Positions 1 to 10,408 of a stretch of DNA of 33,450 nt are shown piece after piece. Source of the stretch: a virus; IMG/VR virus record IMGVR_UViG_3300033233_000114, positions 1 through 33,450 of that record, one strand, 5' to 3'. A program made the translations under genes and the position numbers. Under the pieces are notes generated by a model. The model saw nothing but the letters and a program-made list of their open reading frames with translations, was not told the DNA's origin and ran no database searches. How positions within the stretch are numbered: the first letter of the stretch is position 1; each line of letters opens with the position of its first letter.

Positions 1-127
1 CGCCGACGCTACCACCAGCCAATACCAACCCGGGGAGAAAGTCATGGAATTAGAGGTCAAAGTAGAAAAAGGACTGGTGATTTTTGGAGAGAAGCAGATC
101 ACTCCAGCATTGTTTTGGGCAGAGGGA
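1..127. repeat. 127-bp terminal direct repeat, left copy
   Basis: Bases 1-127 are identical to 33324-33450. An exact repeat of 127 bases at both ends is the usual sign of a circular contig closed by a k=127 assembler, so the unique genome is 33323 bp. It is less likely to be a true short terminal repeat of virion DNA. The copy contains the 3' half of a hairpin (see 33311-33343) and the start of the gene at 44. Confidence 0.95.
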
Positions 128-355
128 GGCAAAGAGGTGGCCATGGCCGGTTACAAAGACGAGATCGAGAGCTATCAACTGGTGGCCAGGACATCGGGCC
201 GGAAGGTGGCGACCGGCTTTGAGATGCGGGATATCCCATGCACCAAAACCACCGACTACCGAAAGGGAGAAGTGGTGATCATCCGCAACGACACCGGAGA
301 GATGGTCGAGACTCGCAAAATCAGAGATAGCGAGAGGCAGATGGATTTGTTGTAA
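44..355 (+). CDS. hypothetical protein, last gene of the early rightward operon
   Basis: This 103-residue protein is not one I recognise. It is soluble-looking, charged and mostly beta-like, with a single cysteine near residue 66 and no membrane segment. The ATG at 44 follows a GGGGAG ribosome binding site by 6 bases. Because the genome is circular, the gene lies about 60 bp downstream of the recT-like gene, across a strong hairpin, so it probably belongs to the recombination operon. Alternatively it is the cargo of the first cassette, since an attC-like site begins 34 bases after its stop. No cassette start box (GTTGGGC expected) is visible upstream, which favours a phage gene. Confidence 0.75.
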   Translation: MELEVKVEKGLVIFGEKQITPALFWAEGGKEVAMAGYKDEIESYQLVARTSGRKVATGFEMRDIPCTKTTDYRKGEVVIIRNDTGEMVETRKIRDSERQMDLL

Positions 356-364
356 CCGATAAAA

Positions 365-391
365 GGCGGAAGGGCATTTAACCCTTCCGCC
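365..391 (+). terminator. strong hairpin after gene 44-355, possible terminator
   Basis: A perfect 10-bp inverted repeat (GGCGGAAGGG, 7-nt loop, CCCTTCCGCC) starts 9 bases after the stop codon. No T tract follows, so it may be Rho-assisted or an RNA-stabilising hairpin. Its right arm overlaps the first three bases of the R'' box of the first attC-like site (389-395), so it marks the junction between phage operon and cassette array. Confidence 0.5.
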
Positions 392-508
392 CAACGAAAA
401 GTTGAGCAGCAGGCCCACCAACACTGAACAGGAGAAATGAAGATGGAACAACCACCGAACGCCGCAGCGCCCGCATACGGCCTGTCTGACTCGAACTCGG
501 GGTTAGGC
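389..508 (+). other. attC-like recombination site 1
   Basis: R'' GCCCAAC (389-395), a 4-nt spacer and L'' AGTTGAG (400-406) face L' CTC-G-AACT (490-497), a 4-nt spacer and R' GTTAGGC (502-508). The stem extends inward: GAGCAGCAGGCC on the left pairs with GGCCTG-T-CTG-A-CTC on the right. The site is therefore a 16-bp imperfect palindrome with three single unpaired bases, all on the right arm. This is the asymmetry by which integron integrases choose the strand of folded attC sites. Its length of 120 nt is within the usual range. The large terminal segment contains a short ORF (437-553). Confidence 0.85.
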
Positions 509-553
509 GTTTTGCGAAATGGGGGAGAGGACGATGCTCTGCGAAAGATGTGA
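437..553 (+). CDS. possible short ORF inside attC-like site 1
   Basis: A 38-codon frame runs from ATG 437 (or ATG 443, better spaced from GGAG at 431-434) to TGA 551-553. It overlaps the start of the next gene (ATG 534). The product is Ala/Pro/Gly-rich and of no recognisable family. Much of it is encoded by attC palindrome, so it may have no function as a protein. Its position, starting in the attC loop and ending just past the next start codon, would suit translational coupling into the following cassette gene. Low confidence. Confidence 0.25.
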   Translation: MKMEQPPNAAAPAYGLSDSNSGLGVLRNGGEDDALRKM

Positions 554-674
554 AAAGAACGAAGCAACAGACCCGCATGAATGCCCGTACCAGCAGGAAA
601 TAAATGAAGACCAGAATCCCGAGTATTGTACCTGCTGCGAAGATTGTCAACAGACTTGCAGGGATGATATTTAA
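534..674 (+). CDS. small cysteine-rich (zinc-binding-type) phage protein
   Basis: The product is 46 residues with nine cysteines: CERC near the N terminus, then a lone Cys in HECPY, then YCTCCEDC and QTC near the C terminus. This spacing looks like a metal-binding fold. Similar small Cys-rich proteins of unknown role are common in phages (family recollection, not a search). A strong GGAGAGG ribosome binding site precedes ATG 534. The gene is the cargo of a cassette that starts at R' GTTAGGC (502) and ends at attC-like site 2. The cassette's R'' box (GCCCAAC) matches the complement of its start box at all but one position. Confidence 0.8.
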   Translation: MLCERCEKNEATDPHECPYQQEINEDQNPEYCTCCEDCQQTCRDDI

Positions 675-686
675 TGCAGTTTTTCA

Positions 687-774
687 GCCCAACGCCGCCA
701 ATAACCAGCGGCCCACGGATTACCAAAAACCACGCGGACGGTCTAGCCGTCTGCGTTAATTGGCTTTGTTATGC
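687..774 (+). other. attC-like recombination site 2
   Basis: R'' GCCCAAC (687-693), a 3-nt spacer and L'' GCCAATAAC (697-705) face L' GTTAATTGGC (755-764), spacer TTT and R' GTTATGC (768-774). Read inward, the left arm GCCAATAACCAGCGG equals the complement of the right arm except for three single extra bases on the right, the same layout as site 1. An inner hairpin GACGG-TCTAG-CCGTC forms the terminal structure. The length is 88 nt. Confidence 0.88.
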
Positions 775-798
775 CGCGTATGCCCAGGAGGGAACAAA

Positions 799-1002
799 AT
801 GCACGAATATATGGAACGCATCAACAAGGCTTTGGCTAATGGTGTTCTTGATGCTGGATCGGTGGCCCATGCCCAAGTCGGCCATGATTTATCCTGCGAT
901 ATTTATACCGGCGGGGAGTGCCATTGCGACCCTGAGATCACGATTGAAACCGATAAAGGGAAATTGCGCGTTACGAGCGCCGGAATTTTGGAAGCGGCAT
1001 AA
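799..1002 (+). CDS. hypothetical cassette protein, 67 aa
   Basis: I do not recognise this 67-residue protein. The N-terminal half is helical (MHEYMERINKAL). A C-H-C cluster near residues 34-44 (SCDIYTGGECHC) could bind metal, and the rest looks like a beta hairpin. AGGAGG at 790-795 precedes ATG 799, which decides this start over an earlier ATG at 760 that lies inside attC site 2. The stop TAA (1000-1002) lies inside the R'' box GCATAAC of the next attC. That box is the exact complement of this cassette's start box GTTATGC (768-774). Confidence 0.75.
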   Translation: MHEYMERINKALANGVLDAGSVAHAQVGHDLSCDIYTGGECHCDPEITIETDKGKLRVTSAGILEAA

Positions 1003-1118
1003 CGATAAAGCTAAGACGCGCTCCTGGCGCGGCTACTGAGGAGATAACTACGATGGACATGCAGAGCAACCTAAGCCGAACCACGGCGCAAGCGTCGTTT
1101 TTAAGCGCCTTGTTATCT
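997..1118 (+). other. attC-like recombination site 3
   Basis: R'' GCATAAC (997-1003) and L'' GCTAAGACG (1010-1018) face L' CGTTTTTAAGC (1096-1106) and R' GTTATCT (1112-1118). GCTAA on the left pairs with TTAAGC on the right with one unpaired base; the rest of the L arm pairs less perfectly than in sites 1 and 2. The length is 122 nt. The terminal segment carries a strong ribosome binding site (GAGGAG, 1037-1042) and ATG 1053. Confidence 0.75.
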
Positions 1119-1376
1119 GATTTTTTTGATGTTTTCTCTGACTGGGAAAGCGATTGGGAGATTGAGGGATCACTGGCCGATGACGAACCGGATGGCGGGA
1201 TTAACGAATATGAAGCGTCGGTCAGACACCGGCATTTGATGAAGGAGCCATGCTACTTCCGGTGCCGTGATGATGGCAAAGGCGGTTTTGAGTTTGAATA
1301 CCATGAAGACTGCTGGGAACCGGTGGCCAAAGAGCAGGTTTGGAGGGCGTTGTGGTTTGATGCCATGGACAGATAA
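1053..1376 (+). CDS. hypothetical acidic cassette protein
   Basis: The protein has up to 107 residues and is very acidic and Trp-rich in its first half (FSDWESDWEIEG), with two late cysteines (PCYFRCRDDG). I do not recognise it. The start is uncertain. ATG 1053 has an excellent GAGGAG ribosome binding site, but both lie inside attC site 3, so the first 19-20 residues would be encoded by recombination-site DNA. A TTG at 1110 overlapping R' would give an 88-residue protein, but without a good ribosome binding site. The stop TAA (1374-1376) lies in R'' AGATAAC, which exactly complements the cassette start box GTTATCT. Confidence 0.7.
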   Translation: MDMQSNLSRTTAQASFLSALLSDFFDVFSDWESDWEIEGSLADDEPDGGINEYEASVRHRHLMKEPCYFRCRDDGKGGFEFEYHEDCWEPVAKEQVWRALWFDAMDR

Positions 1377-1393
1377 CGCCTTGATAACCCGAC
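1371..1393 (+). other. attC-like site 4, left half only
   Basis: R'' AGATAAC (1371-1377) is followed by GCC and a possible L'' arm. No matching L'/R' arm is found before the Lar-like gene at 1519. The expected partner would contain GGTTATCAA plus a GTTNNNN box. The site is therefore truncated. The following cassette also lacks its start box (GTTAACT expected), as if one deletion or rearrangement removed both ends. Confidence 0.55.
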
Positions 1394-1400
1394 CGGGCCA

Positions 1401-1518
1401 ATGAAGCCGCCCGGAAGGCTACAACCCCATCAAGTGCGGGGCTGGGGTTTACGCCGACAAGATGGCCGACCTTGAGAACGAATATCCCGAGTTCGCAGAG
1501 ATGGCGGAGGCTGAGTAA
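1401..1518 (+). pseudogene. small phage ORF broken by a +1 frameshift
   Basis: ATG 1401 opens MKPP, and one base later the frame continues PEGYNPIKCGAGVYADK and on to an acidic C terminus ending EMAEAE before TAA 1516-1518. The 118-nt span is one base too long for a single frame. An extra C in the CCGCCC run (about 1407-1412) explains it. The stop directly abuts the ATG of the Lar-like gene, so the two were once translated together. This is either a real lesion or an assembly error. I do not know the function; removing the extra base would give a 38-residue protein. Confidence 0.5.
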
Positions 1519-1728
1519 ATGGAAACAGTGGATATGCTAAAACCCTGCCCGTTTTGTGGGTGCGATATGAAAATAGTGCCGGATATAGGGGACTACCCGG
1601 AACGCATTATGGTTACTGACTACCACGCAGAAACTTGCATTTTTAAAGACGAGGAATGCTTGTCATACCAAGCACATTACGAGGGATCGGCAGCGTTTTC
1701 ACTGAAATGGAACAGGAGACCGGGATGA
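1519..1728 (+). CDS. Lar-family restriction alleviation protein
   Basis: This 69-residue protein has the hallmarks of the Lar family: an N-terminal zinc knuckle LKPCPFCGCDM, a second Cys pair (ETCIFKDEEC) and a C-terminal W-N-R-R motif (KWNRRPG). In enterobacterial prophages Lar relieves type I restriction by boosting host modification (family knowledge); here the target is unknown. Its ATG abuts the stop of the broken ORF upstream, and its TGA overlaps the next ATG (ATGA at 1725-1728), so it is part of a two-gene cassette. It sits with two DNA methylase genes, which fits a protective role against host restriction. Confidence 0.8.
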   Translation: METVDMLKPCPFCGCDMKIVPDIGDYPERIMVTDYHAETCIFKDEECLSYQAHYEGSAAFSLKWNRRPG

Positions 1729-1919
1729 ACCACGGAGGAAAGCGAGAGCCGCGGCCTGGCAAGAAGCTGGGCGCACCGCCCGGGGCACGAACCGACACGG
1801 TAAAGCTCGGAATCAGCATCAGCAAGAGAAATGCCGACAGGCTGAAGGCCAATAAGAAAAAAGGAATTTCCCGCCTGATAGACCTGGCCCTTGACGCCTG
1901 GTTTGATCGGGAAAGTTAA
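1725..1919 (+). CDS. small basic DNA-binding-like protein (ribbon-helix-helix type?)
   Basis: The product is 64 residues. The N-terminal half is disordered and rich in Lys, Arg, Gly and Pro. The C-terminal half reads VKLGISISKRNADRLK, then KKKGISRLIDLALDAWF. A short beta strand followed by two helices is the outline of ribbon-helix-helix proteins, so it may be a small regulator or antitoxin-like DNA binder; this is inference. The start overlaps the Lar-like stop by four bases. The stop TAA (1917-1919) lies inside the R'' box of attC site 5, as with other cassette genes here. Confidence 0.7.
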   Translation: MNHGGKREPRPGKKLGAPPGARTDTVKLGISISKRNADRLKANKKKGISRLIDLALDAWFDRES

Positions 1920-2001
1920 CGTCTTTTATAAGCTGCCAGCCCCTGAGCATCCAGAAGTTTGAACAGCCTTTATTCTGGACTGCTTGATAAATTTGTTAGC
2001 G
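1914..2001 (+). other. attC-like recombination site 5
   Basis: R'' AGTTAAC (1914-1920) and L'' TTTATAAGC (1925-1933) face L' GCTT-G-ATAAA (1982-1991, one unpaired G), spacer TTT and R' GTTAGCG (1995-2001). An inner stem CCAGAA/TTCTGG (1951-1956 with 1973-1978) makes the terminal structure. The length is 88 nt. The TTT spacer before R' is shared with sites 2 and 6. Confidence 0.87.
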
Positions 2002-2018
2002 GTTTTTAGGAGGTTGTT

Positions 2019-2990
2019 TTGAATGAGTTGGCTTTATTCGCAGGCGCTGGTGGCGGAATACTTGGAGGGCAATTGCTCGGCTGGCGCACTGTCTGCGCTG
2101 TCGAATGCAACCCCTACGCCGCAAGCGTACTGTGCGCCAGACAAAATGACGGACTTCTCCCGCCCTTCCCGGTTTGGGATGACGTTTGCACCTTTGACGG
2201 AACCCCTTGGCGTGGGATTGTTGACGTGGTTTCTGGCGGATTTCCCTGCCAGGACATCAGCGCCGCTGGCAAGGGCGCAGGGATCGACGGCGAGAGAAGC
2301 GGCTTGTGGGGGCAAATGGCCCGGATTATTGGCGAGGTACGACCGGGGAAGGTCTTTGTGGAAAACTCCCCAATGCTCACTCTTCGGGGGCTTGGTAGAG
2401 TTCTCGGCGACCTGGCCGCGCTGGGGTACGATGCGGAATGGGGAGTGCTGGGCGCGGAAGATGTGGGAGCGCCACACCGCCGGGAACGAATATGGATTAT
2501 GGGCCACACCCAGAGCCTCGGCGAACGAAAACCGGCAGACCAAACCAACGCCCTCGCAACTGGCCGGGAAACACGGCTTGAGCTTGTGCGCCCAGGCCAA
2601 CACGCCGGAAATGTGGCCAACCCCGAACGTCCCGAACGGCGGGAGAAGTACAGCGCATGTGACGGACTGGCGGGGAAAAACGGCCTACCACAACGGGAAG
2701 AAGGTGCAAGTGGGGCTGGAAAGTGCGGTGAAACGGTTCCCGACCCCGACGAAGCGCGACCACAAGGGTGGGGCCGACTGGAACAAGCGAACCAGAGATG
2801 GGAAGAAACGCCCGGAATCAGATATGACCTTGCCGGATGTGGTGGAAATGGCTGGTGGGCATCTGAACCCGCAGTGGGTCGAGTGGTTGATGGGCTGGCC
2901 GCTCGGGTGGACAGACTTACAGCCCTTGGAAATGGGCAAGTGCCAGCATGTGCGGCTGAAGCGTACCGCCGGTTGACCTTGTACCGCTAA
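2019..2990 (+). CDS. C5-cytosine DNA methyltransferase (Dcm type)
   Basis: This 323-residue enzyme would transfer a methyl group from SAM to cytosine C5 in phage DNA. The motifs appear in order: motif I LALFAGAGGGILGG (about 3-17), motif IV GGFPCQDIS with the catalytic Cys (about 73-81), motif VI VENSP (about 113), motif VIII PHRRERIWI (about 151-160), and motif X LGNGQVPACAAEA near the end. Residues about 165-290 look poorly constrained. The start is TTG 2019, five bases after AGGAGG (2009-2013 region). The stop lies in R'' of attC site 6. Four bases after the TTG, ATG 2023 opens a second long frame (2023-2976). It is cassette cargo, probably protecting against host restriction. Confidence 0.88.
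   Translation: MNELALFAGAGGGILGGQLLGWRTVCAVECNPYAASVLCARQNDGLLPPFPVWDDVCTFDGTPWRGIVDVVSGGFPCQDISAAGKGAGIDGERSGLWGQMARIIGEVRPGKVFVENSPMLTLRGLGRVLGDLAALGYDAEWGVLGAEDVGAPHRRERIWIMGHTQSLGERKPADQTNALATGRETRLELVRPGQHAGNVANPERPERREKYSACDGLAGKNGLPQREEGASGAGKCGETVPDPDEARPQGWGRLEQANQRWEETPGIRYDLAGCGGNGWWASEPAVGRVVDGLAARVDRLTALGNGQVPACAAEAYRRLTLYR
2023..2976 (+). CDS. overlapping out-of-frame protein nested in the cytosine methylase gene
   Basis: A 317-codon frame runs almost the full length of the methylase gene, shifted by one base. Its ATG 2023 has the better start codon for the shared AGGAGG site (nine-base spacing). It is not random-looking. It carries three W/F-x-TP blocks (LWATPRAS, MWPTPNVPNG, FPTPTKRDHKGG) and a C-terminal block LNPQWVEWLMGWPLGWTDL. 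I recall that block from phage proteins annotated as hypothetical or methylase-associated, but did not search. The W/F-x-TP blocks fall where the methylase frame is least constrained, suggesting that selection alternates between frames. The function is unknown. It could still be a passive open frame in GC-rich DNA. Confidence 0.6.
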   Translation: MSWLYSQALVAEYLEGNCSAGALSALSNATPTPQAYCAPDKMTDFSRPSRFGMTFAPLTEPLGVGLLTWFLADFPARTSAPLARAQGSTAREAACGGKWPGLLARYDRGRSLWKTPQCSLFGGLVEFSATWPRWGTMRNGECWARKMWERHTAGNEYGLWATPRASANENRQTKPTPSQLAGKHGLSLCAQANTPEMWPTPNVPNGGRSTAHVTDWRGKTAYHNGKKVQVGLESAVKRFPTPTKRDHKGGADWNKRTRDGKKRPESDMTLPDVVEMAGGHLNPQWVEWLMGWPLGWTDLQPLEMGKCQHVRLKRTAG

Positions 2991-3070
2991 CGGCTTTTAT
3001 CACCGGAGCCGCCCCGGTGTAAAATAATGGCGCAAACGTTCCCGGCTTCCGGTGAATAAATTTGTTGTGC
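2985..3070 (+). other. attC-like recombination site 6
   Basis: R'' CGCTAAC (2985-2991) and L'' TTTATCACCGGAGCC (2996-3010) face L' GGCTTCCGGTGAATAAA (3044-3060), spacer TTT and R' GTTGTGC (3064-3070). The arms are fully complementary over 15 bp except for two single unpaired bases on the right (a T near 3048 and an A near 3056). The length is 86 nt. R'' is the exact complement of this cassette's start box GTTAGCG (1995-2001). Confidence 0.9.
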
Positions 3071-3082
3071 GAGGGTGTAGGC

Positions 3083-3581
3083 ATGGATGCTCGTTTTGAC
3101 CGACAAGAAAAGAGGGAAGTCCAGACCTTGTTTGGCCTGAAAACCCTGGAAGGTAAAGACGAATGGCTGACACCTCCGCAGATAATTAAGACGGTTGGCC
3201 CTTTTGACCTCGACCCTTGCGCCCCGATAAACCGCCCCTGGGAAATGGCGGCTAACCACTACACCGTGATTGACAACGGGCTAAATATGCCATGGGCGGG
3301 CCGGGTTTGGTGCAACCCGCCCTATGGGACGCAAACCGGCCTATGGCTGGCAAAACGCGCTGACCTTTGCCCGCACTGAGACAAAGGCTTTTTTTGACGC
3401 TGTGTGGGACAAGGCGGACGCTGTTTTCTTTTTCCGTGGGCGGATAAAGTTCTATCACGTTTCTGGCAGGGAAGGTGGCAGCGCAGGAGCGCCAAGCATT
3501 TTGATTGCCTACGGTAGAGACAACGCTGACCGGTTGCTGAACGCCAAACTGGACGGCAAGGGAATTAGATTAAAGGCTTGA
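3083..3581 (+). pseudogene. phage Dam-type N6-adenine methyltransferase, frameshifted
   Basis: The first frame (ATG 3083 to TGA 3377-3379) encodes the N-terminal half of a phage DNA N-6-adenine methyltransferase: EWLTPPQII, FDLDPCAP, and the catalytic-type NPPY in VWCNPPYGTQTGLWLAK. The second frame, entered near 3350, carries the C-terminal half: ALTFARTETKAFFDAVWDKADAVFFFRGRIKFYH and GAPSILIAYG, to TGA 3579-3581. Relatives normally have a short linker (several residues) between LAK and the alanine-rich strand, so the lesion looks like a small out-of-frame deletion. The two halves might be made separately, but loss of function is likelier. The ATG at 3083 is preferred over an upstream TTG. 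Confidence 0.75.
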
Positions 3582-3582
3582 A

Positions 3583-3600
3583 GCACAACAGTATATTAGA
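3583..3600 (+). other. attC-like site 7, R'' box only
   Basis: GCACAAC (3583-3589) directly follows the Dam-type gene and is the exact complement of that cassette's start box GTTGTGC (3064-3070). No matching L' or R' arm is found downstream, so the array ends in a truncated attC. The junction with the convergent lysis operon lies within the next 200 bases. Confidence 0.6.
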
Positions 3601-3812: not shown

Positions 3813-3998
3813 TTACTGTTCAACCGTGCCGCCCGTGACGTTTTTATCTTTCGCCAGATAGCCGAGTGCGGCAAGGCCAGCGGACACGGCTAAATCACGA
3901 GAGCTGATCTGACTTACTTGGCCGCCCATTACCAGCGGCATCAACAGGTTTGCAACAGCGGCCAGCATACCGGCCAGGGTAGTTTTCCAGTTTTTCAT
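3813..3998 (-). CDS. small membrane protein, holin-like
   Basis: The product is 61 residues: a short basic start (MKNWKTT), a hydrophobic stretch LAGMLAAVANLLMPLVMGG, a polar turn, a second weaker apolar helix (LAVSAGLAALGYLA) and a charged tail KDKNVTGG. Small proteins beginning MKNWKTTLAG and ending near KDKNVTGG recur next to endolysins in phages (recollection), and holin is a reasonable inference. Its start overlaps the endolysin stop by four bases (ATGA). It is the last confident gene of the leftward late operon. Confidence 0.7.
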   Translation of the reverse strand: MKNWKTTLAGMLAAVANLLMPLVMGGQVSQISSRDLAVSAGLAALGYLAKDKNVTGGTVEQ

Positions 3999-4441
3999 AC
4001 AATCTCCTTCTTATAGACAGTTTTACCGCCTTCCTTGACGGCTGATAGCACCTCACCGCGAGGGGCCGTTTTTGCTAATCCCAAATGAACCCATCCGGTT
4101 TCTCCGAACTCGTAGATAATTTGGTCAAAATTGGTCAACATGGTTTGCAGGATCTCACAAACCCGGTTGTTGCTGAAATCGTCAACCGTGAAATCAGCGG
4201 CCAGGGCGAAGCGGTGCGAACTGGTAGGCGACCCACCCACCGCCTGATTGACCTCTGGTGAACGGTAGCAACTTGTCACCCTCACAGGGCGACCGAAACG
4301 AGTCCTGATTGTCTCCAGAGTCGCCGCCATCAGTTTTGCGTTGCTCATCAGTTCGGGCGGGATCTCGTTTGACAGACCCATCCTGATTGCTGTAGATGAT
4401 CGCTCAAATTCTTCGGTGCTGAAATGTTCCGTGAGTTTCAT
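3995..4441 (-). CDS. endolysin, peptidase M15 type (D-Ala-D-Ala/L-Ala-D-Glu peptidase fold)
   Basis: This 148-residue zinc peptidase would cut the peptide stems of host murein at lysis. It starts FSTEEFERSSTA, typical of the M15_3 family. The zinc-site motifs are SSHRFALAADF (His and Asp about residues 76-84) and WVHLG (His about 117), preceded by VTSCYRSPEVNQAVGG. No signal peptide or cell-wall-binding domain is visible, so release through the neighbouring holin-like protein is expected. ATG 4441 is preferred over GTG 4444, and it shares its A with the stop of the preceding small gene. Confidence 0.9.
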   Translation of the reverse strand: MKLTEHFSTEEFERSSTAIRMGLSNEIPPELMSNAKLMAATLETIRTRFGRPVRVTSCYRSPEVNQAVGGSPTSSHRFALAADFTVDDFSNNRVCEILQTMLTNFDQIIYEFGETGWVHLGLAKTAPRGEVLSAVKEGGKTVYKKEIV

Positions 4442-4578
4442 CACGCCACCTCGTCGCCATTTTCGTCAAACTCAGCGGGCCAGAACTCATGCAGCAGATC
4501 CGCCCACGGTTGAGATTCAGCTGAGTTTTTTAACTTTGCCCCGCGCACTTGTTTTTTGATCAAGATTATTTTTCCCAT
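4441..4578 (-). CDS. hypothetical 45-aa protein in lysis cassette
   Basis: This 45-residue protein has a basic N-terminal third (MGKIILIKKQVRGAKLK) and an acidic, Trp-containing C-terminal part (PWADLLHEFWPAEFDENGDEV). The reading frame exactly fills the gap between its neighbours: TAATG overlap at the start (4578) and TGATG overlap at the end (4441). That tight coupling is the main evidence that it is real. No family is recognised; a lysis accessory or regulatory role is only a guess from position. Confidence 0.6.
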   Translation of the reverse strand: MGKIILIKKQVRGAKLKNSAESQPWADLLHEFWPAEFDENGDEVA

Positions 4579-4781
4579 TACGCCACCTCATCCATAGTTA
4601 AAGCCCCGACCACGCACCCGTGCATGGCTTCGGTGATCCGCTCCCAATCGACATCTGGGTTGTAGGGGTTGGCGAAGATCGAGCCGCGCTTTGCAACTTC
4701 AGCGCGGAGCCCGGGGAGGAGTTTGTCACACTCGCCACATCCGGTGCAGGAGTGACCGATCTTGATGGCGAGGACGGTCAT
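4578..4781 (-). CDS. mini-ferredoxin-like iron-sulfur protein
   Basis: The product is 67 residues with SCTGCGECDKLLPG near the N terminus (Cys about 12, 15 and 18) and GCVVGALTMDE near the C terminus (Cys about 56). Single-cluster [4Fe-4S] ferredoxins use CxxCxxC plus one distal Cys usually followed by Pro. All four ligands are present here, although the distal C-P is C-V and the second-cluster Cys is replaced by Leu (LLPG). A bound cluster is inferred, not shown. The gene is coupled to both neighbours (ATGA and TAATG overlaps) within the lysis cassette. An alternative is a zinc-binding protein of unrelated fold. Confidence 0.6.
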   Translation of the reverse strand: MTVLAIKIGHSCTGCGECDKLLPGLRAEVAKRGSIFANPYNPDVDWERITEAMHGCVVGALTMDEVA

Positions 4782-5230
4782 TTTTCCCCCCGCATCTGCC
4801 GCCCCAGGTTATCGAAGCAGTCGATCAGCAGCCGCTTAGTCTCGGCAACCTCAGCCCGAATGGCGTCAACCACTCTTTGAGTCTCGGCCCGGTCGGTCTT
4901 CCCGTCGTTTTTTACCTCGCCAATCTGCCGCAAAAGTTCGGCGTGGCGCTCTTTGCCATTCGCCCCGCAGATCGTGCAGGAGTCCTGAAAGATGACCCGC
5001 TTGAAGGTCTCCGTTGTTTCTGCCTTATGAGTGGCGATGGCGGAGTTGATCTCGGTTTTCCATTCTTTCGAGGTGCCAGCGTGTTCGGCCTTGTACTCGG
5101 CAAACTGCTCCTTAAAGGCCAGTAGCTCTTGCTTCAGTAGCGCCTGACCAATCCTGATCCCCATGTACCCGGACCCGGCAGGGACTACCACACCAATGAC
5201 CAGCGTTATCCCCACCTGTGCTACGTCCAT
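4778..5230 (-). CDS. membrane-anchored coiled-coil protein (holin/spanin candidate)
   Basis: The product is 150 residues. An N-terminal membrane segment (about 6-28, VGITLVIGVVVPAGSGYMGI) is followed by a long charged coiled coil (about 33-75), then CTICGANGKERH (CxxC with a downstream His, possibly metal-binding) and a second coiled coil to the C terminus. One membrane anchor plus periplasmic or cytoplasmic coils recalls i-spanins and XhlA-type lysis accessories, but the CTIC block is not typical of either. It is the first gene of the lysis cassette, 41 bases after the fibre gene, with a purine-rich ribosome binding site. Confidence 0.65.
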   Translation of the reverse strand: MDVAQVGITLVIGVVVPAGSGYMGIRIGQALLKQELLAFKEQFAEYKAEHAGTSKEWKTEINSAIATHKAETTETFKRVIFQDSCTICGANGKERHAELLRQIGEVKNDGKTDRAETQRVVDAIRAEVAETKRLLIDCFDNLGRQMRGEK

Positions 5231-5271
5231 CCTCTTCCCCCGCTTATTTTAGATTTCAGCAAAAAACTAAA

Positions 5272-8200
5272 TTAGTAAACATAACAGCTCGATCCGGTGT
5301 AGATCGTCCCGGTCTGTCCTGCGGTTGATGCCGATGCCATTACAGCTACCGTCCCGGCAGTCGATCCGTTCTTTATCGTTCCGGAAATATTAAACAGTAT
5401 GGGAGTGGTAAGGACGGAAGACGTAACAGATGTACTCGTCGCGGTGGCAGAAAAAGCACCCGCCCCGGTTATAACCTCAGTAGCGTATGCCGTAGACCGG
5501 TATGAATAACCCACCGAAACCGCCGTTGGGCTGGCGGGGCCGTTGACGTTGAACCGTAGGAGTGAGGTGGCCGTATTAAGTGTGTTTAGATTGCAATCAA
5601 AGGTCATTTCCTGGTTGGCGGCAATGCTCCATGTTAACCCGGTGACATTGGCGGCGGTGGTGCTGCTGGTGGTGACGTTTGAGGTCGCCACTTTGTACAC
5701 CGCGCCGACGGCGCTACCGGAGGGATGCACATGGTCGGCCCTGGCTGCGTACTGTGATGTCCCACGCGCAGCGGTTCCATCGGCTGCCGGGGTGCTAGTT
5801 GTATCGGGATTGTTAGTCGCGGTGATATGCCAGCCCGCTGAGCCGTAAACAAGGTTGATCCCCTTGCCCTTGGATGAGATACCAGTAGTGGCCGGGCTAA
5901 AAGCGTAGGTGGTGGCCCCATCCACAAAGGCGGCAGATGGGGTAATGATCAATCCGTCGTTGGTGTTACCCTGAGCCTTCCATACCAGTTCCAACTCTTG
6001 GCCCGCCGTACCCGCCGCCAGGGTGCAGTTGTCCTGATCGGAGTCGCCGTCGCTAGTTAATTCGATGATCTTGGCGGTCAGAGGGATAGCCGCGCCGGTA
6101 TGTGAGCAGGTTACGGCTCCAGGGGTTGATACCTCAGCCCCGGTGGTGGTAGTAGCCGGGACTGATAAAATGCCAGTTGAAGGGTTATAACTGAACGCCG
6201 TCGCCGTGCTGCTGGCCTGGTTGCTAGTGGTATTGGCCGCTGATAGCATTGGATAAAATGCGGAGTTGGTCGTGACTGCCCCGGTGTTGGCCAGGGCAGC
6301 AGCACTCCCGGCGCTGCCGCTGGCATTGCTGTAGTCGTTAGCCATGAGGGTTTTGGTGGTCGTCGGGAAAGTGTAGGTCTGGCCAGCGGTGCCGGTGAAG
6401 GTCGAAGAGCCAGCGGTTAAGGTGTGGCCGTTGTAGGTCTTGCCGGTCAGGGCCGAAGCAATCTTGCCATCAGCAATGGCCGTGGCGTTCCAGGTGCCGG
6501 TCGCAATGGTGCCGGTTGAGGTAATGGCGGTGTTGCCGGTCCAGGTCGAAAGAGCGGTGTTTTCCACATTGTTTAGAGACAGGTCGCTTTTCAGCGTTGC
6601 GACCGATACCGCAGTCGGCACCGCCGTACCTGCCGTGGTGTTGCCCAGGTAGGTTTTCGTGGCGATGGTGGCAATATCCCCCAAAGCAACCGCCCCGAAT
6701 GCGGGATTACCCGCAGCGTTGCCGTGGAGTACGGTGCTGGTGGTTCCCTGGTTGGCAAAATCAGCCGAAGATAGGCCGAGAGTGATATTGCTGGAGAGCG
6801 CCTTGCCGTTAACGGTGGTATCGGTCCCGACTTTACCATTTGCCAGGTCATAGGCCGACTTAACCGCCGTGCTACTAGCTGCCGTTGTACTGCTGGTAGT
6901 GCTGGTGCTGTCTGAAATTGCAGTAATGTTGAGCGAGGTTCCCCACGCTGCGCCGGTTGATACCGCCACTCCCGAACCAGGGTAGACCATCCCGCCCGCG
7001 CCAGGCGCTACCCATGACCGGGTCCCGCCCGTAGTCGATGACAGCACATACCCATTGGTTCCGGGATTGCCAAGAGCCGCCTCGTAGTTTGTCCCAGCTA
7101 CGAAATTAGCGGCCCGGTAGTCGCTGGCATAGGTGGTGTTAGTCGCGTTGTCGCCGGTATTCGCGCCGCTAACAGTCGTGGTGCCGGTAACCGCCAGGGT
7201 CGGGGTTGCAGCCCCGGTGATATCCACTGAATTGAATTTTTGAGCAGTCACCGCGCCGGTAAAAGTGGCTGATCCGGTCGACGACAACGTTAATTGAGGA
7301 GTTGATGAGCCGCCTGCGGCAAACCTAATATCCCCAGTAGCCGTGTCGTTTTGCAGGACGATATTTCCCGAAGTGGTGTTGAAAAAACCCAGATCATTTG
7401 CGCCGATGGCGTGCCAGCCAGTATACCCGCTGCTGGCCTTGTACAACTGCCCGTATGCCGCGGTATCTGCCTGCACGAACACTGCCGCCGTCGAGACGGC
7501 GGCTGCTGAAGTATTATGAACCCTAATTCCCTGGTTACCGGATACCGAAGTATCAACATTTAGTATGTCAGTTGGAGCAGAGTTGCCGATTCCAACTTTC
7601 CCGCTTACGGTAAGGTTCCCAGACCCAGCGTCCGGGGATAGATACCCTACTGCCAACCCCCCGGTCGAACCAATCCGCATACGTTCGACGGAGTTGGTGT
7701 AAAATAGCGCGGGGTGATTAGTTAAACTGCCTTGGCCAAAAGTAGTCCCACCCCCGGCTATACCAAAAACCGTTTGAATGGTTGGATTATCTACACGGAA
7801 CAATCGGTTTACCCCCGCCACAGTCGTTACGCTATGCACCGCTTCTGCTGGAGCTGCCGTGCCAATACCCAGCCGGGTATTGACCTCGTCGTAGGTAGAG
7901 TTTGCGCCCAGATTGATCTTACCCTTGGTGCCGTTCGAGGTGCTGGACAGCGTGAGGTTTTCCCCCGCAGCCGTCCCGCCAACAATCGTCTGGCCACCAG
8001 CCGCGCCAGCCGGATTAAAATCAGTGTCAGGTGACCACTCAGCGTCAGTCTCACCCGCGTTCACTCGCAGATGTTGGAGAGTTTTGCCGGTCATGGCCGG
8101 AAGGATAGCAACTGCCGTATGCCCATGATTCCCCGCCGCCGCAGTGGTGCTAGTGCTGCCAAGATTAACCCCGATGGCATCTGCCCCAACATTGATTGTG

Positions 8201-8574
8201 CCAATGGTCCCAGCAGACCCGGTATGGCTGACGATGTTAAGGGTAGGGTCAATGCTAGCCGTGCCGGTCTGGGTCATACCGTTCCCAGCGGTGACACTGG
8301 TTACGGTGCCTGTGCCGCTCCCCGCCGCGTTGGTCTGCGCCCAAGTTCCAGACGGATTGAGGACATACTGTGCATACGGCGCATCAATGTTCTCCCGTAG
8401 TGTGCCAATCTTAACCCCTGTTGGGTTGGCATCGGCAGTCAAGCAAGATACCCTGTCCCCAGACTTTGGGGTGCAAGATCCAAAAGAAGGGGAAACCAGC
8501 CAGGCCATTAACACAATTGATAAGATAACCGTGGCCATGGTCACCAGGGCTATTTTGAGATATTCTTTTCGCAT
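5272..8574 (-). CDS. large tail fibre/adhesin with signal-peptide-like N terminus
   Basis: The protein has about 1100 residues, rich in Ser, Thr, Ala and Gly with repetitive beta-type sequence. Fibre hallmarks include LNNVENTALSTWTGNTAI with GTWNATAI (about 680-710) and RGTSQYAARADHVHP (about 950), common in phage tail fibres. The C-terminal 130 residues look like a receptor-binding beta domain. Start ATG 8574 is chosen because AAGGAG lies seven bases upstream; a longer frame to 8604 has no such site. The N terminus is MRKEYLKIALVTMATVILS, then apolar to about residue 26, then SPSFGSC, which looks like a signal peptide or membrane anchor and is odd for a virion fibre. Single-frame length argues against error. 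Confidence 0.85.
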   Translation of the reverse strand: MRKEYLKIALVTMATVILSIVLMAWLVSPSFGSCTPKSGDRVSCLTADANPTGVKIGTLRENIDAPYAQYVLNPSGTWAQTNAAGSGTGTVTSVTAGNGMTQTGTASIDPTLNIVSHTGSAGTIGTINVGADAIGVNLGSTSTTAAAGNHGHTAVAILPAMTGKTLQHLRVNAGETDAEWSPDTDFNPAGAAGGQTIVGGTAAGENLTLSSTSNGTKGKINLGANSTYDEVNTRLGIGTAAPAEAVHSVTTVAGVNRLFRVDNPTIQTVFGIAGGGTTFGQGSLTNHPALFYTNSVERMRIGSTGGLAVGYLSPDAGSGNLTVSGKVGIGNSAPTDILNVDTSVSGNQGIRVHNTSAAAVSTAAVFVQADTAAYGQLYKASSGYTGWHAIGANDLGFFNTTSGNIVLQNDTATGDIRFAAGGSSTPQLTLSSTGSATFTGAVTAQKFNSVDITGAATPTLAVTGTTTVSGANTGDNATNTTYASDYRAANFVAGTNYEAALGNPGTNGYVLSSTTGGTRSWVAPGAGGMVYPGSGVAVSTGAAWGTSLNITAISDSTSTTSSTTAASSTAVKSAYDLANGKVGTDTTVNGKALSSNITLGLSSADFANQGTTSTVLHGNAAGNPAFGAVALGDIATIATKTYLGNTTAGTAVPTAVSVATLKSDLSLNNVENTALSTWTGNTAITSTGTIATGTWNATAIADGKIASALTGKTYNGHTLTAGSSTFTGTAGQTYTFPTTTKTLMANDYSNASGSAGSAAALANTGAVTTNSAFYPMLSAANTTSNQASSTATAFSYNPSTGILSVPATTTTGAEVSTPGAVTCSHTGAAIPLTAKIIELTSDGDSDQDNCTLAAGTAGQELELVWKAQGNTNDGLIITPSAAFVDGATTYAFSPATTGISSKGKGINLVYGSAGWHITATNNPDTTSTPAADGTAARGTSQYAARADHVHPSGSAVGAVYKVATSNVTTSSTTAANVTGLTWSIAANQEMTFDCNLNTLNTATSLLRFNVNGPASPTAVSVGYSYRSTAYATEVITGAGAFSATATSTSVTSSVLTTPILFNISGTIKNGSTAGTVAVMASASTAGQTGTIYTGSSCYVY

Positions 8575-8584
8575 TTTTTGCTCC

Positions 8585-10408
8585 TTATTCAACCGTTGAC
8601 CCAACGGAAATCGAGGTTCCGTTGGGGAATTTTATAAAGACTTCAGTTATCTTGTCCGGGGTGGTTCCGGTGACAGTGTAGTAGTAGGTCGGGATGGTGA
8701 CGGTGCCGGGATCACCAAGAGGAATACCAGTATCTCCACCAGCTCCTGCCACGATGATCTTCCGATAGACAGTAAACATCGAAACCAGTGCGCCACCAGT
8801 GCATCCCAGTTTCGGGCCGGTAGAGTTAGCGGCGGTAATCTCGCACTCAAACATGCCAGGAAGACCGGGTATATCTTGCCCAATGCCCAGAGGTGCGGAG
8901 GAAACTCCCCCGATAGAGGCGGTGATTGCATTGACCTGGTCGTCTGCTACAGGGCGTTTCCAGCGAAGGAGGTAGGTGTCTCCTGGGACTACGGTCATCG
9001 GAGCTGCGCTTGATTCAATCAAATAGTCTTCCAACACGGGATGAAACGTCGCCAGCCCTCCTGTGACAGCCCCCTCGTCGATGTACCAATTAGCAGCATC
9101 GGCGAACATTGGGTCATATATTTTTTGGATTATTTCATAATCCCCGGACGATCTACGCAGCATAGCGCCAAAGTTAGTACCGGCATGGTCACCTAGGATA
9201 ATCCCCGCGTGTTCCGGGGAAATCAAGCATTGAGTCAGACTTCCGTAAACTACTGCCCCACCTAGCGCGGATACTATTGCCAGGTTCCCCGTACACCTAC
9301 GAATACCGCCGCCGGTAGAACCGGAATACGTCTGAGTTTCCCCCTCCAGCTCGCCTTGAGTGCAACAGGGCCAATCAGTCGCCCACGCATTCTCCGTCAT
9401 GCACACCCAATTGTTTCCCTCGCCCCATTGAGCGCGATACCCCGATTTTTGCAACACCGCCCACGGCCATTCATATTCTCCGGATCTAGCATCATGATGA
9501 GTTAGGTGAGTGATTTCGCCCGTGGGGTGTCCTAATTTACCCACCGCTTTTCGCATTGCGTCAGGGGAGGAACTCCCGCCGCTAACAGAGTTGGGGTCAA
9601 TACCCAATACTCCTGGCGACACACTGAGGATCGTTGCCCCGTAGACTACTCCCATAGTATCCGTCGCGGTTACATAGACGGTCTGCCCAACCATGAAACC
9701 AGCAGAGACAAAACGATCGTCTGAGTCGAGTATCTGGTCGTTTATGAGAGGATTTTCGTTGGCGATAACCGATATCGACGCCCCGGTGATGGTTGGTTCT
9801 GCGCCAACCTCCAAGCGGCAACTGTACGGGATGAACGGGATATCCTGATACCCAACAGAAAAATCATCATGTGACGAATATTGACCAGTGTCCTGAGTCC
9901 GATAAACCCGGCATAGCGCCGCCCGCCAGTCATAATCGCAGTTGATCTTCCTTGTGAGCCAATGTCGCCGGATAATCGATCCTGTCTGAGACAGATGGCC
10001 CTGAAATCCCCTGGTATAAAAAAGGTTGTTGGCGGGAACCCAATGTATAATATCGTTCGGGTATTGCGATGAAGATGCTTCGAGTTCAAACGAAGACGTT
10101 GTTTTAGCAGTAAGAGTAAGGGTTTCTGCTTCGCCGGTGCAAATACCATCGGGATAGGGGTCACCAACCTGGGGCCCGGTCCACCCAGGGATGATAAATT
10201 TAGCCTGATAGGTCATCTGGTATTTATCGCCAACAACCAGGCCGCCAGCGGTGGCGAGGGCCATCAGGTTGGTGTAGGTGGATAGGGGATGGGTGGTGAT
10301 GCCAAGACCTCCGGGGCCAACTGGTCCACGCGCCCCCGATTCGGTAAGGTGAAAAACAAAAGGCTCTTCGGTCAGGTCAAAACTGCTTGTTTCAGTGATT
10401 GTCATCAT
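8585..10408 (-). CDS. tail fibre/tip-associated structural protein
   Basis: The product is about 607 residues, starting at ATG 10408 one base after the stop of the preceding gene (a longer in-frame start exists but lies inside that gene). The N-terminal part FDLTEEPFVFHLTESGARGPVGPGGLG links a short beta strand to a collagen-like Gly-x-Pro stretch, a frequent joint in tail fibres. The middle and end are beta-rich with several Cys (MTENAWATDWPCCTQGE), without a recognised enzymatic motif. Receptor binding or fibre connection is inferred from position between the BppU-like protein and the large fibre. Confidence 0.75.
   Translation of the reverse strand: MMTITETSSFDLTEEPFVFHLTESGARGPVGPGGLGITTHPLSTYTNLMALATAGGLVVGDKYQMTYQAKFIIPGWTGPQVGDPYPDGICTGEAETLTLTAKTTSSFELEASSSQYPNDIIHWVPANNLFYTRGFQGHLSQTGSIIRRHWLTRKINCDYDWRAALCRVYRTQDTGQYSSHDDFSVGYQDIPFIPYSCRLEVGAEPTITGASISVIANENPLINDQILDSDDRFVSAGFMVGQTVYVTATDTMGVVYGATILSVSPGVLGIDPNSVSGGSSSPDAMRKAVGKLGHPTGEITHLTHHDARSGEYEWPWAVLQKSGYRAQWGEGNNWVCMTENAWATDWPCCTQGELEGETQTYSGSTGGGIRRCTGNLAIVSALGGAVVYGSLTQCLISPEHAGIILGDHAGTNFGAMLRRSSGDYEIIQKIYDPMFADAANWYIDEGAVTGGLATFHPVLEDYLIESSAAPMTVVPGDTYLLRWKRPVADDQVNAITASIGGVSSAPLGIGQDIPGLPGMFECEITAANSTGPKLGCTGGALVSMFTVYRKIIVAGAGGDTGIPLGDPGTVTIPTYYYTVTGTTPDKITEVFIKFPNGTSISVGSTVE

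Follow-up and report, generated by a model that had tools for sequence, protein, structure and literature searches.

An integrase-less cassette array in a tailed-phage genome and the inversion of genes relative to attC in viral arrays

Introduction

Can a phage genome hold a true array of mobile gene cassettes, and is such an array built in the same way as those of bacterial integrons? The question is raised by positions 389 to 3,600 of the viral record IMGVR_UViG_3300033233_000114 from IMG/VR, whose full 33,450 nucleotides are referred to here as the window. The window is a circular viral record with a 127-bp terminal repeat and comes from a tailed phage, with terminase, major head protein, tape measure, and lysis genes all present. 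A sequence-only reading of the region had proposed that five attC-like sites and two half sites separate a row of small open reading frames (ORFs), and had called a multi-cassette array in a virulent-looking phage unusual. The latter judgement holds only in part: an earlier survey (Qi et al., 2023; PMC9892861) described 17 clusters of this kind in phage genomes, some of them of virulent phages, though the inversion of genes described below looks new. The array is very probably a genuine cluster of attC sites lacking an integron integrase (CALIN), carried by a circular tailed phage and belonging to a distinct viral class of cassettes whose genes run opposite to their attC sites.

attC Sites and the Cassette Rule

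The attC sites were sought with a covariance model, R1, built from 32 sites of bacterial integrons and one plasmid integron (the aadA1 site), with the window excluded. For its construction, integron integrases were located in 80 bacterial genome contigs, and neighbouring attC sites were extracted by a palindrome scan and aligned. The search of the whole window was run unfiltered, and R1 E-values are rough. The top four matches in the 33-kb genome are four of the proposed attC sites (a1, a2, a4, and a5; Table 1), and the best match elsewhere is a short chance hairpin of 13.8 bits. The remaining site, a3, is matched weakly, but its match ends as predicted and both of its R boxes fit the cassette rule, by which the last R box of a cassette complements its first. 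All five sites and both half sites lie where the sequence-only reading had placed them, and the covariance search, set beforehand as the test by which an array could be refuted, gave matches at the predicted coordinates. A palindrome scan with strict R boxes missed sites; the relaxed version used instead recovered a1, a2, and a5, with none elsewhere and none in ten shuffles at equal threshold. Rfam returned nothing on the window at the gathering threshold.

The cassette rule is exact in four of the five cassettes (GTTATGC at 768 with GCATAAC at 997, GTTATCT at 1112 with AGATAAC at 1371, GTTAGCG at 1995 with CGCTAAC at 2985, and GTTGTGC at 3064 with GCACAAC at 3583) and has one mismatch in the fifth (GTTAGGC at 502 with GCCCAAC at 687), as had been claimed. 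In a larger viral set, adjacent box pairs match fully in 144 of 192 cases versus 22.8 in shuffles; given this random match rate of ∼12%, the chance of four exact pairs in five is p ∼1e-3. The ORFs ending at 1002, 1376, 1919, and 2990 have their stop codons inside a left box, a further detail that the sequence-only reading had correctly seen. Both the R1 matches and the cassette rule support its core proposal that the phage genome carries a cassette array of integron type. An attC would be expected after the half site at 1371, where R1 gave no match, and the stretch from 1371 to 1914 is a cassette whose attC is decayed or lost. No match to TIGR02249 or PF00589, and so no tyrosine recombinase or integron integrase, was found anywhere in the window record. 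A CALIN is defined by at least two attC sites with no neighbouring integron integrase, and the window holds five; with no integrase it does not constitute a complete integron, attI having not been searched separately.

Gene Polarity in Viral and Bacterial Arrays

All five attC matches of the window lie on the minus strand and the cassette ORFs all lie on the plus strand, so the canonical bacterial form, with gene and attC on one strand, is absent from the window. In bacterial arrays the two share a strand, plus with plus for aadA1 and minus with minus for Vibrio and Shewanella arrays. Folding had been proposed for the bottom strand of each site; the sites being minus, the strand expected to recombine is instead the plus strand. 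Site polarity was invisible to the sequence-only reading because the R-box rule is symmetric under reversal. Neither RNA nor DNA folding energies separate the strands, and polarity therefore rests on the model and on the side of the bulges. Read in model orientation, 74 of 80 bacterial sites and 214 of 222 viral ones, those of the window included, have extra-helical bases on the 5′ arm of attC, which confirms attC polarity independently of the model.

Viral arrays were gathered by three routes, namely relatives of the window methyltransferase and terminase, a scan of IMG/VR with an attC sequence pattern, and viral integron integrases. The viral counts given here and below are samples, drawn from the matches listed by these searches, with attC sites called by R1 and near-identical contigs merged. 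The scan pattern, taken from viral attC sites, is biased towards one type of site but towards no orientation; its listed matches among viral contigs are attC-like arrays. Calling the gene strand by longest ORF proved ambiguous in GC-rich contigs and was replaced by a score of codon usage and ribosome sites, trained partly on the same contigs.

Among the matches listed, viral intervals are inverted in 302 cases and sense in 18 (114 de-duplicated loci), and 103 of the 110 scorable loci are inverted, with 7 sense. The same pipeline applied to bacterial integrons gave 95 sense intervals versus 7 inverted, or 29 sense loci and 1 inverted of 30 (Fisher test by locus, viral vs. bacterial polarity, p = 2.7e-22). 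Within the bacterial set, the Burkholderiales control, which is close to the viral integrases, gave 49 sense and 3 inverted intervals. A batch that had played no part in setting up the strand score gave 109 inverted and 0 sense. Gene strand was also established by homology, and inversion was found for C-5 methyltransferases (window, L167, L168, and L180), N6/N4 methyltransferases (L180 and L050), a DHH phosphoesterase (L166 and L396), and the exonuclease of L397. R1 finds sites in three published phages, TJE1, MW202573, and H101, and leaves P12002L undetected; relative to the annotated genes, attC is inverted in MW202573 and H101 and sense in TJE1.

The window, MW202573, TJE1, and H101 are real viruses, and many of the viral records in the comparison are fragments. 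Terminase (PHROG 2) is present in 16 of 41 tested records from the pattern scan and related searches and in 6 of 33 records that nearly all bear integrases, with a portal gene in two more. Some bacterial or prophage contigs likely contaminate the viral set. Vibrio-like integrases are found at L437 and L439, both of them sense loci.

Cassette Mobility Among Viral Contigs

Movement of whole cassettes is visible in other viral arrays. The contigs L396 and L397 are 99.9% identical over 4 kb and differ by whole cassettes: L396 reads CTCCAAC..GTTATGC, cassette, GCATAAC..GTTGTGC, and L397 holds a single hybrid site, CTCCAAC..GTTGTGC. A DHH phosphoesterase cassette is common to L166, L319, and L396, with both of its ends at attC ends. 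The test proposed by the sequence-only reading, that related phages be compared for cassettes gained or lost at G|TTRRRY points, comes out positive in viral arrays outside the kin of the window, for which no close relatives were returned.

A methyltransferase cassette is shared at 99.81% identity between L167 (2555-3606) and L166 (2531-3582), the identity stopping at the cassette ends and the flanks being unrelated. It lies within the array in L167 and stands alone in L166 at a non-attC site 4.4 kb outside the array of that contig, where the target inferred from the minus strand reads G|ATATAA. An empty-site copy of this ectopic insertion was sought and not found. The target rule of attG, a class of non-classical insertion sites, is reportedly G|WT, and the L166 insertion would be compatible with a target of this type. 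Cassette insertion at non-classical attG sites has been described by Loot et al. (2024), as cited in PMC12901181; what sets the L166 case apart is its viral target contig and the inverted polarity of its cassette.

Viral Integron Integrases

Of 50 attC-bearing records, nine score above the integron-integrase cut-off; the window is not among them. In the integrase-bearing viral contigs, the polarity of attC relative to intI is standard, and the cassette genes point towards intI and are co-directional with it, the shared direction being seen in 57 of 70 clear intervals. In a quick tree that includes 25 Burkholderiales integrases, 24 viral integrases from among the matches listed form an exclusively viral clade with a Shimodaira-Hasegawa-like approximate likelihood ratio test (SH-aLRT) support of 98, sister to a Burkholderiales clade that holds IntI1. 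Inverted arrays also accompany viral integrases elsewhere in the tree; because they occur outside the viral clade, the inversion is probably not a single inheritance.

A viral origin of IntI1 was considered when an initial tree placed the enzyme among the viral integrases of the clade, and was rejected once the 25 Burkholderiales integrases were added and IntI1 moved out. The Burkholderiales integrases are the proper neighbours of IntI1, sister to the viral clade. Of 399 genomes sampled from this order (L474-L499), 128 encode an integrase that matches IntI1 at E ≤ 1e-100, and near-identical copies aside these integrases reach 77% identity to IntI1.

Two integrase-bearing viral contigs deserve separate mention. 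Virus Rctr41k (KX853513.1; L083), an enrichment-culture phage, encodes, at 4680-5678 and 6641-8813, an IntI-like integrase ∼45% identical to IntI1 and, adjoining it, four attC-like sites, with R boxes that obey the cassette rule and cassettes in sense orientation; it is absent from the complete phage integrons listed in Qi et al. (2023; PMC9892861). In L396 (7374-9296), a phage integrase is directly followed on the same strand by a 640-aa ParB-like protein, a neighbour that hints at a plasmid-like or partition-linked phage lifestyle.

Cassette Genes and Genome of the Window Phage

The array sits between the end of a plus-strand block of exonuclease and RecT genes (44-355) and converging minus-strand late genes (Table 1), and the window also encodes a DnaB-like helicase, exonuclease VIII, and a RecT-like protein. 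Judged from family matches, the cassette load appears to be mainly anti-restriction, comprising two orphan methyltransferases, one of them frameshifted, and a Lar-like protein whose PF14354 score of 26.7 bits lies below the 28.6 cut-off. Two unusually long open frames overlap the C-5 methyltransferase gene, one in a shifted frame of the same strand at 2023-2976 (317 aa) and one on the opposite strand at 2034-2603 (189 aa). The Dam-type methyltransferase is split over the overlapping frames 3062-3379 and 3324-3581, either a broken gene or an assembly error. Directly before the first attC, at 365-388, lies a GC-rich inverted repeat (GGAAGGG...CCCTTCC), perhaps the terminator of the upstream block.

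Close relatives of the window phage were sought with its RecT-like protein, which returned one weak relative, and with its exonuclease, which returned none; terminase relatives reach identities only up to about 55%. Kinship with MW202573, which has a similar layout, was considered and is unsupported by comparison of terminase and endolysin.

Table 1. Features of the cassette array, its flanks, and the structural genes of the window phage.
Feature	Position	Strand	Evidence
Left flank, last gene of exonuclease/RecT block	44..355	+	weak phrog_12688 match, E 0.028
attC a1, GCCCAAC 389-395 / GTTAGGC 502-508	389..508	-	R1 28.6 bits, E 7e-5; palindrome scan
Cassette 1 gene, 46-aa cysteine-rich ORF	534..674	+	sequence; below length of coding-strand caller, scored ambiguous
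attC a2, GCCCAAC...GTTATGC	687..774	-	R1 32.5 bits, E 8.5e-6; palindrome scan
Cassette 2 gene, 80-aa hypothetical protein, stop inside 997 box	760..1002	+	no family matched
attC a3, GCATAAC...GTTATCT, weak	997..1118	-	R1 10.3 bits, E 1.3, match 1000-1115
Cassette 3 gene, 107-aa hypothetical protein, start within a3, stop inside 1371 box	1053..1376	+	
Half site AGATAAC, closes cassette begun at right box of a3	1371..1377	.	sequence
Lar-like restriction-alleviation protein, cassette with decayed attC	1519..1728	+	PF14354 E 6.8e-6; phrog_599 E 4.4e-7
87-aa ORF, stop inside 1914 box	1656..1919	+	no family matched
attC a4, AGTTAAC...GTTAGCG	1914..2001	-	R1 19.5 bits, E 0.0095
Cassette 4 gene, C-5 cytosine DNA methyltransferase, stop inside 2985 box	2019..2990	+	PF00145 E 8.6e-31; phrog_363 E 3e-66
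attC a5, CGCTAAC...GTTGTGC	2985..3070	-	R1 28.9 bits, E 5.8e-5, match 2986-3070; palindrome scan
Cassette 5 gene, Dam-type N6-adenine methyltransferase, frameshifted	3062..3581	+	PF05869 E 4e-9; phrog_111 on both pieces
Half site GCACAAC, closes last cassette; array entry end in minus-strand polarity	3583..3589	.	sequence
Right flank, endolysin (peptidase M15-like), in minus-strand late block	3995..4444	-	phrog_894 E 6e-38
Terminase large subunit	window		phrog_2
Major head protein	window		phrog_283
Tape measure	window		tape-measure PHROG families

Discussion

The inversion is best explained by the operon architecture of phages, because integrase and cassette genes are co-directional in the viral contigs that carry an integrase. 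With insertion at the standard end, next to the integrase, transcription of the phage operon would read a cassette gene only in the orientation inverted relative to attC. For the window, the host or a co-infecting phage may provide in trans the integrase that moves cassettes into and out of the genome; this enzyme would act on the folded bottom strand of attC, here predicted to be the plus, coding strand. The array would be filled from a viral pool of polarity-inverted cassettes, and the cassette genes may be expressed by read-through from the upstream plus-strand exonuclease and RecT block.

A second account holds that the inversion is chiefly an effect of replication, in that the recombinogenic bottom strand is the coding strand and becomes the lagging-strand template if replication follows the genes, so that the array stays highly recombinogenic. 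In the chromosomal integrons of Vibrio cholerae the bottom strand of attC lies on the leading-strand template, and experimental inversion of the array sharply raises excision (PMC11023631). The GC skew of the window, positive over the two plus-strand blocks and negative over the minus-strand ones, is as this account would have it, but the skew tracks the strand of the genes and cannot tell replication apart from transcription. As the chief cause, replication is considered rather unlikely; such an effect is compatible with the operon explanation and does not exclude it.

The array might also be a passive passenger, a piece of some bacterial chromosomal integron that the phage acquired through illegitimate or homologous recombination, a route suggested by Qi et al. 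(2023; PMC9892861). The absence of an integrase, the lost attC, and the frameshifted cassette gene of the window would all fit, as would Vibrio phage p16, which did take up a piece of its host integron and has cassettes in the bacterial-type sense orientation. A captured bacterial array should be sense, however, whereas the window and nearly all of the viral loci compared (103 of 110) are inverted and bacterial loci (29 of 30) are sense; several cassettes in viral arrays moreover carry PHROG phage families. Capture of this kind is judged highly improbable. In a further account, also highly improbable, the hairpins have ceased to be recombination sites and persist between phage genes solely to terminate transcription or as RNA structures: the palindromes do lie between co-directional genes, and attC sites reportedly hold weak terminators (PMC9892861), but a terminator needs neither R boxes complementary across a gene, as found in the window and the wider viral set, nor a polarity of extra-helical bases, and does not account for the exact presence and absence of a cassette at attC ends in L396 and L397.

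Some observations weigh against a viral, polarity-inverted CALIN that is still in use. The sense loci, which comprise TJE1, Rctr41k, and five other viral loci, mean that inversion is not universal. With a3 weak, one attC lost, and the last methyltransferase frameshifted, the array of the window may be partly decayed and inactive, and no cassette movement was shown within its own lineage, no close relative having been returned.

As an integrase-less phage array the window has published counterparts. The phage CALINs of TJE1, P12002L, H101, and MW202573 (Qi et al., 2023; PMC9892861) resemble the window as attC clusters without an integrase and with methyltransferase cassettes, so that phage CALINs carrying such cassettes have been in print since 2023. 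Some of their attC sites are functional, IntI1 having recombined five of the six phage attC sites tested in that study. The sections of it covered here make no mention of gene polarity relative to attC. With sedentary chromosomal and mobile class 1 integrons, the viral arrays share the attC architecture, the R-box rule, and, where intI is present, the polarity from intI to attC. They differ from both in that viral genes are inverted within the cassette and viral integrase and cassette genes are co-directional, and the window is without intI. Within the open-access literature, preprints not included, no description was found of genes reversed against attC, of integron integrases forming a viral clade, or of phage-to-phage cassette exchange; this does not prove novelty.

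A broader reading, which is favoured with some reserve, is that viruses keep an integron system of their own, with a viral clade of integrases, of which some serve in trans phages that have none, the window phage being one such, and with an inverted cassette pool that is largely isolated from the bacterial one because a cassette of either pool goes unexpressed in the other. If this is true, integrons, known as gene-capture systems of bacteria that phages carry now and then, would also sustain a cassette economy run by the phages themselves, in which anti-restriction methyltransferases are part of the currency. The inversion opens questions about the birth of cassettes, when polarity must be set, about the mixing of pools, and about whether array orientation tunes recombination rate in phages. 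Polarity would also provide a simple test by which viral arrays may be told from bacterial ones in metagenomes.

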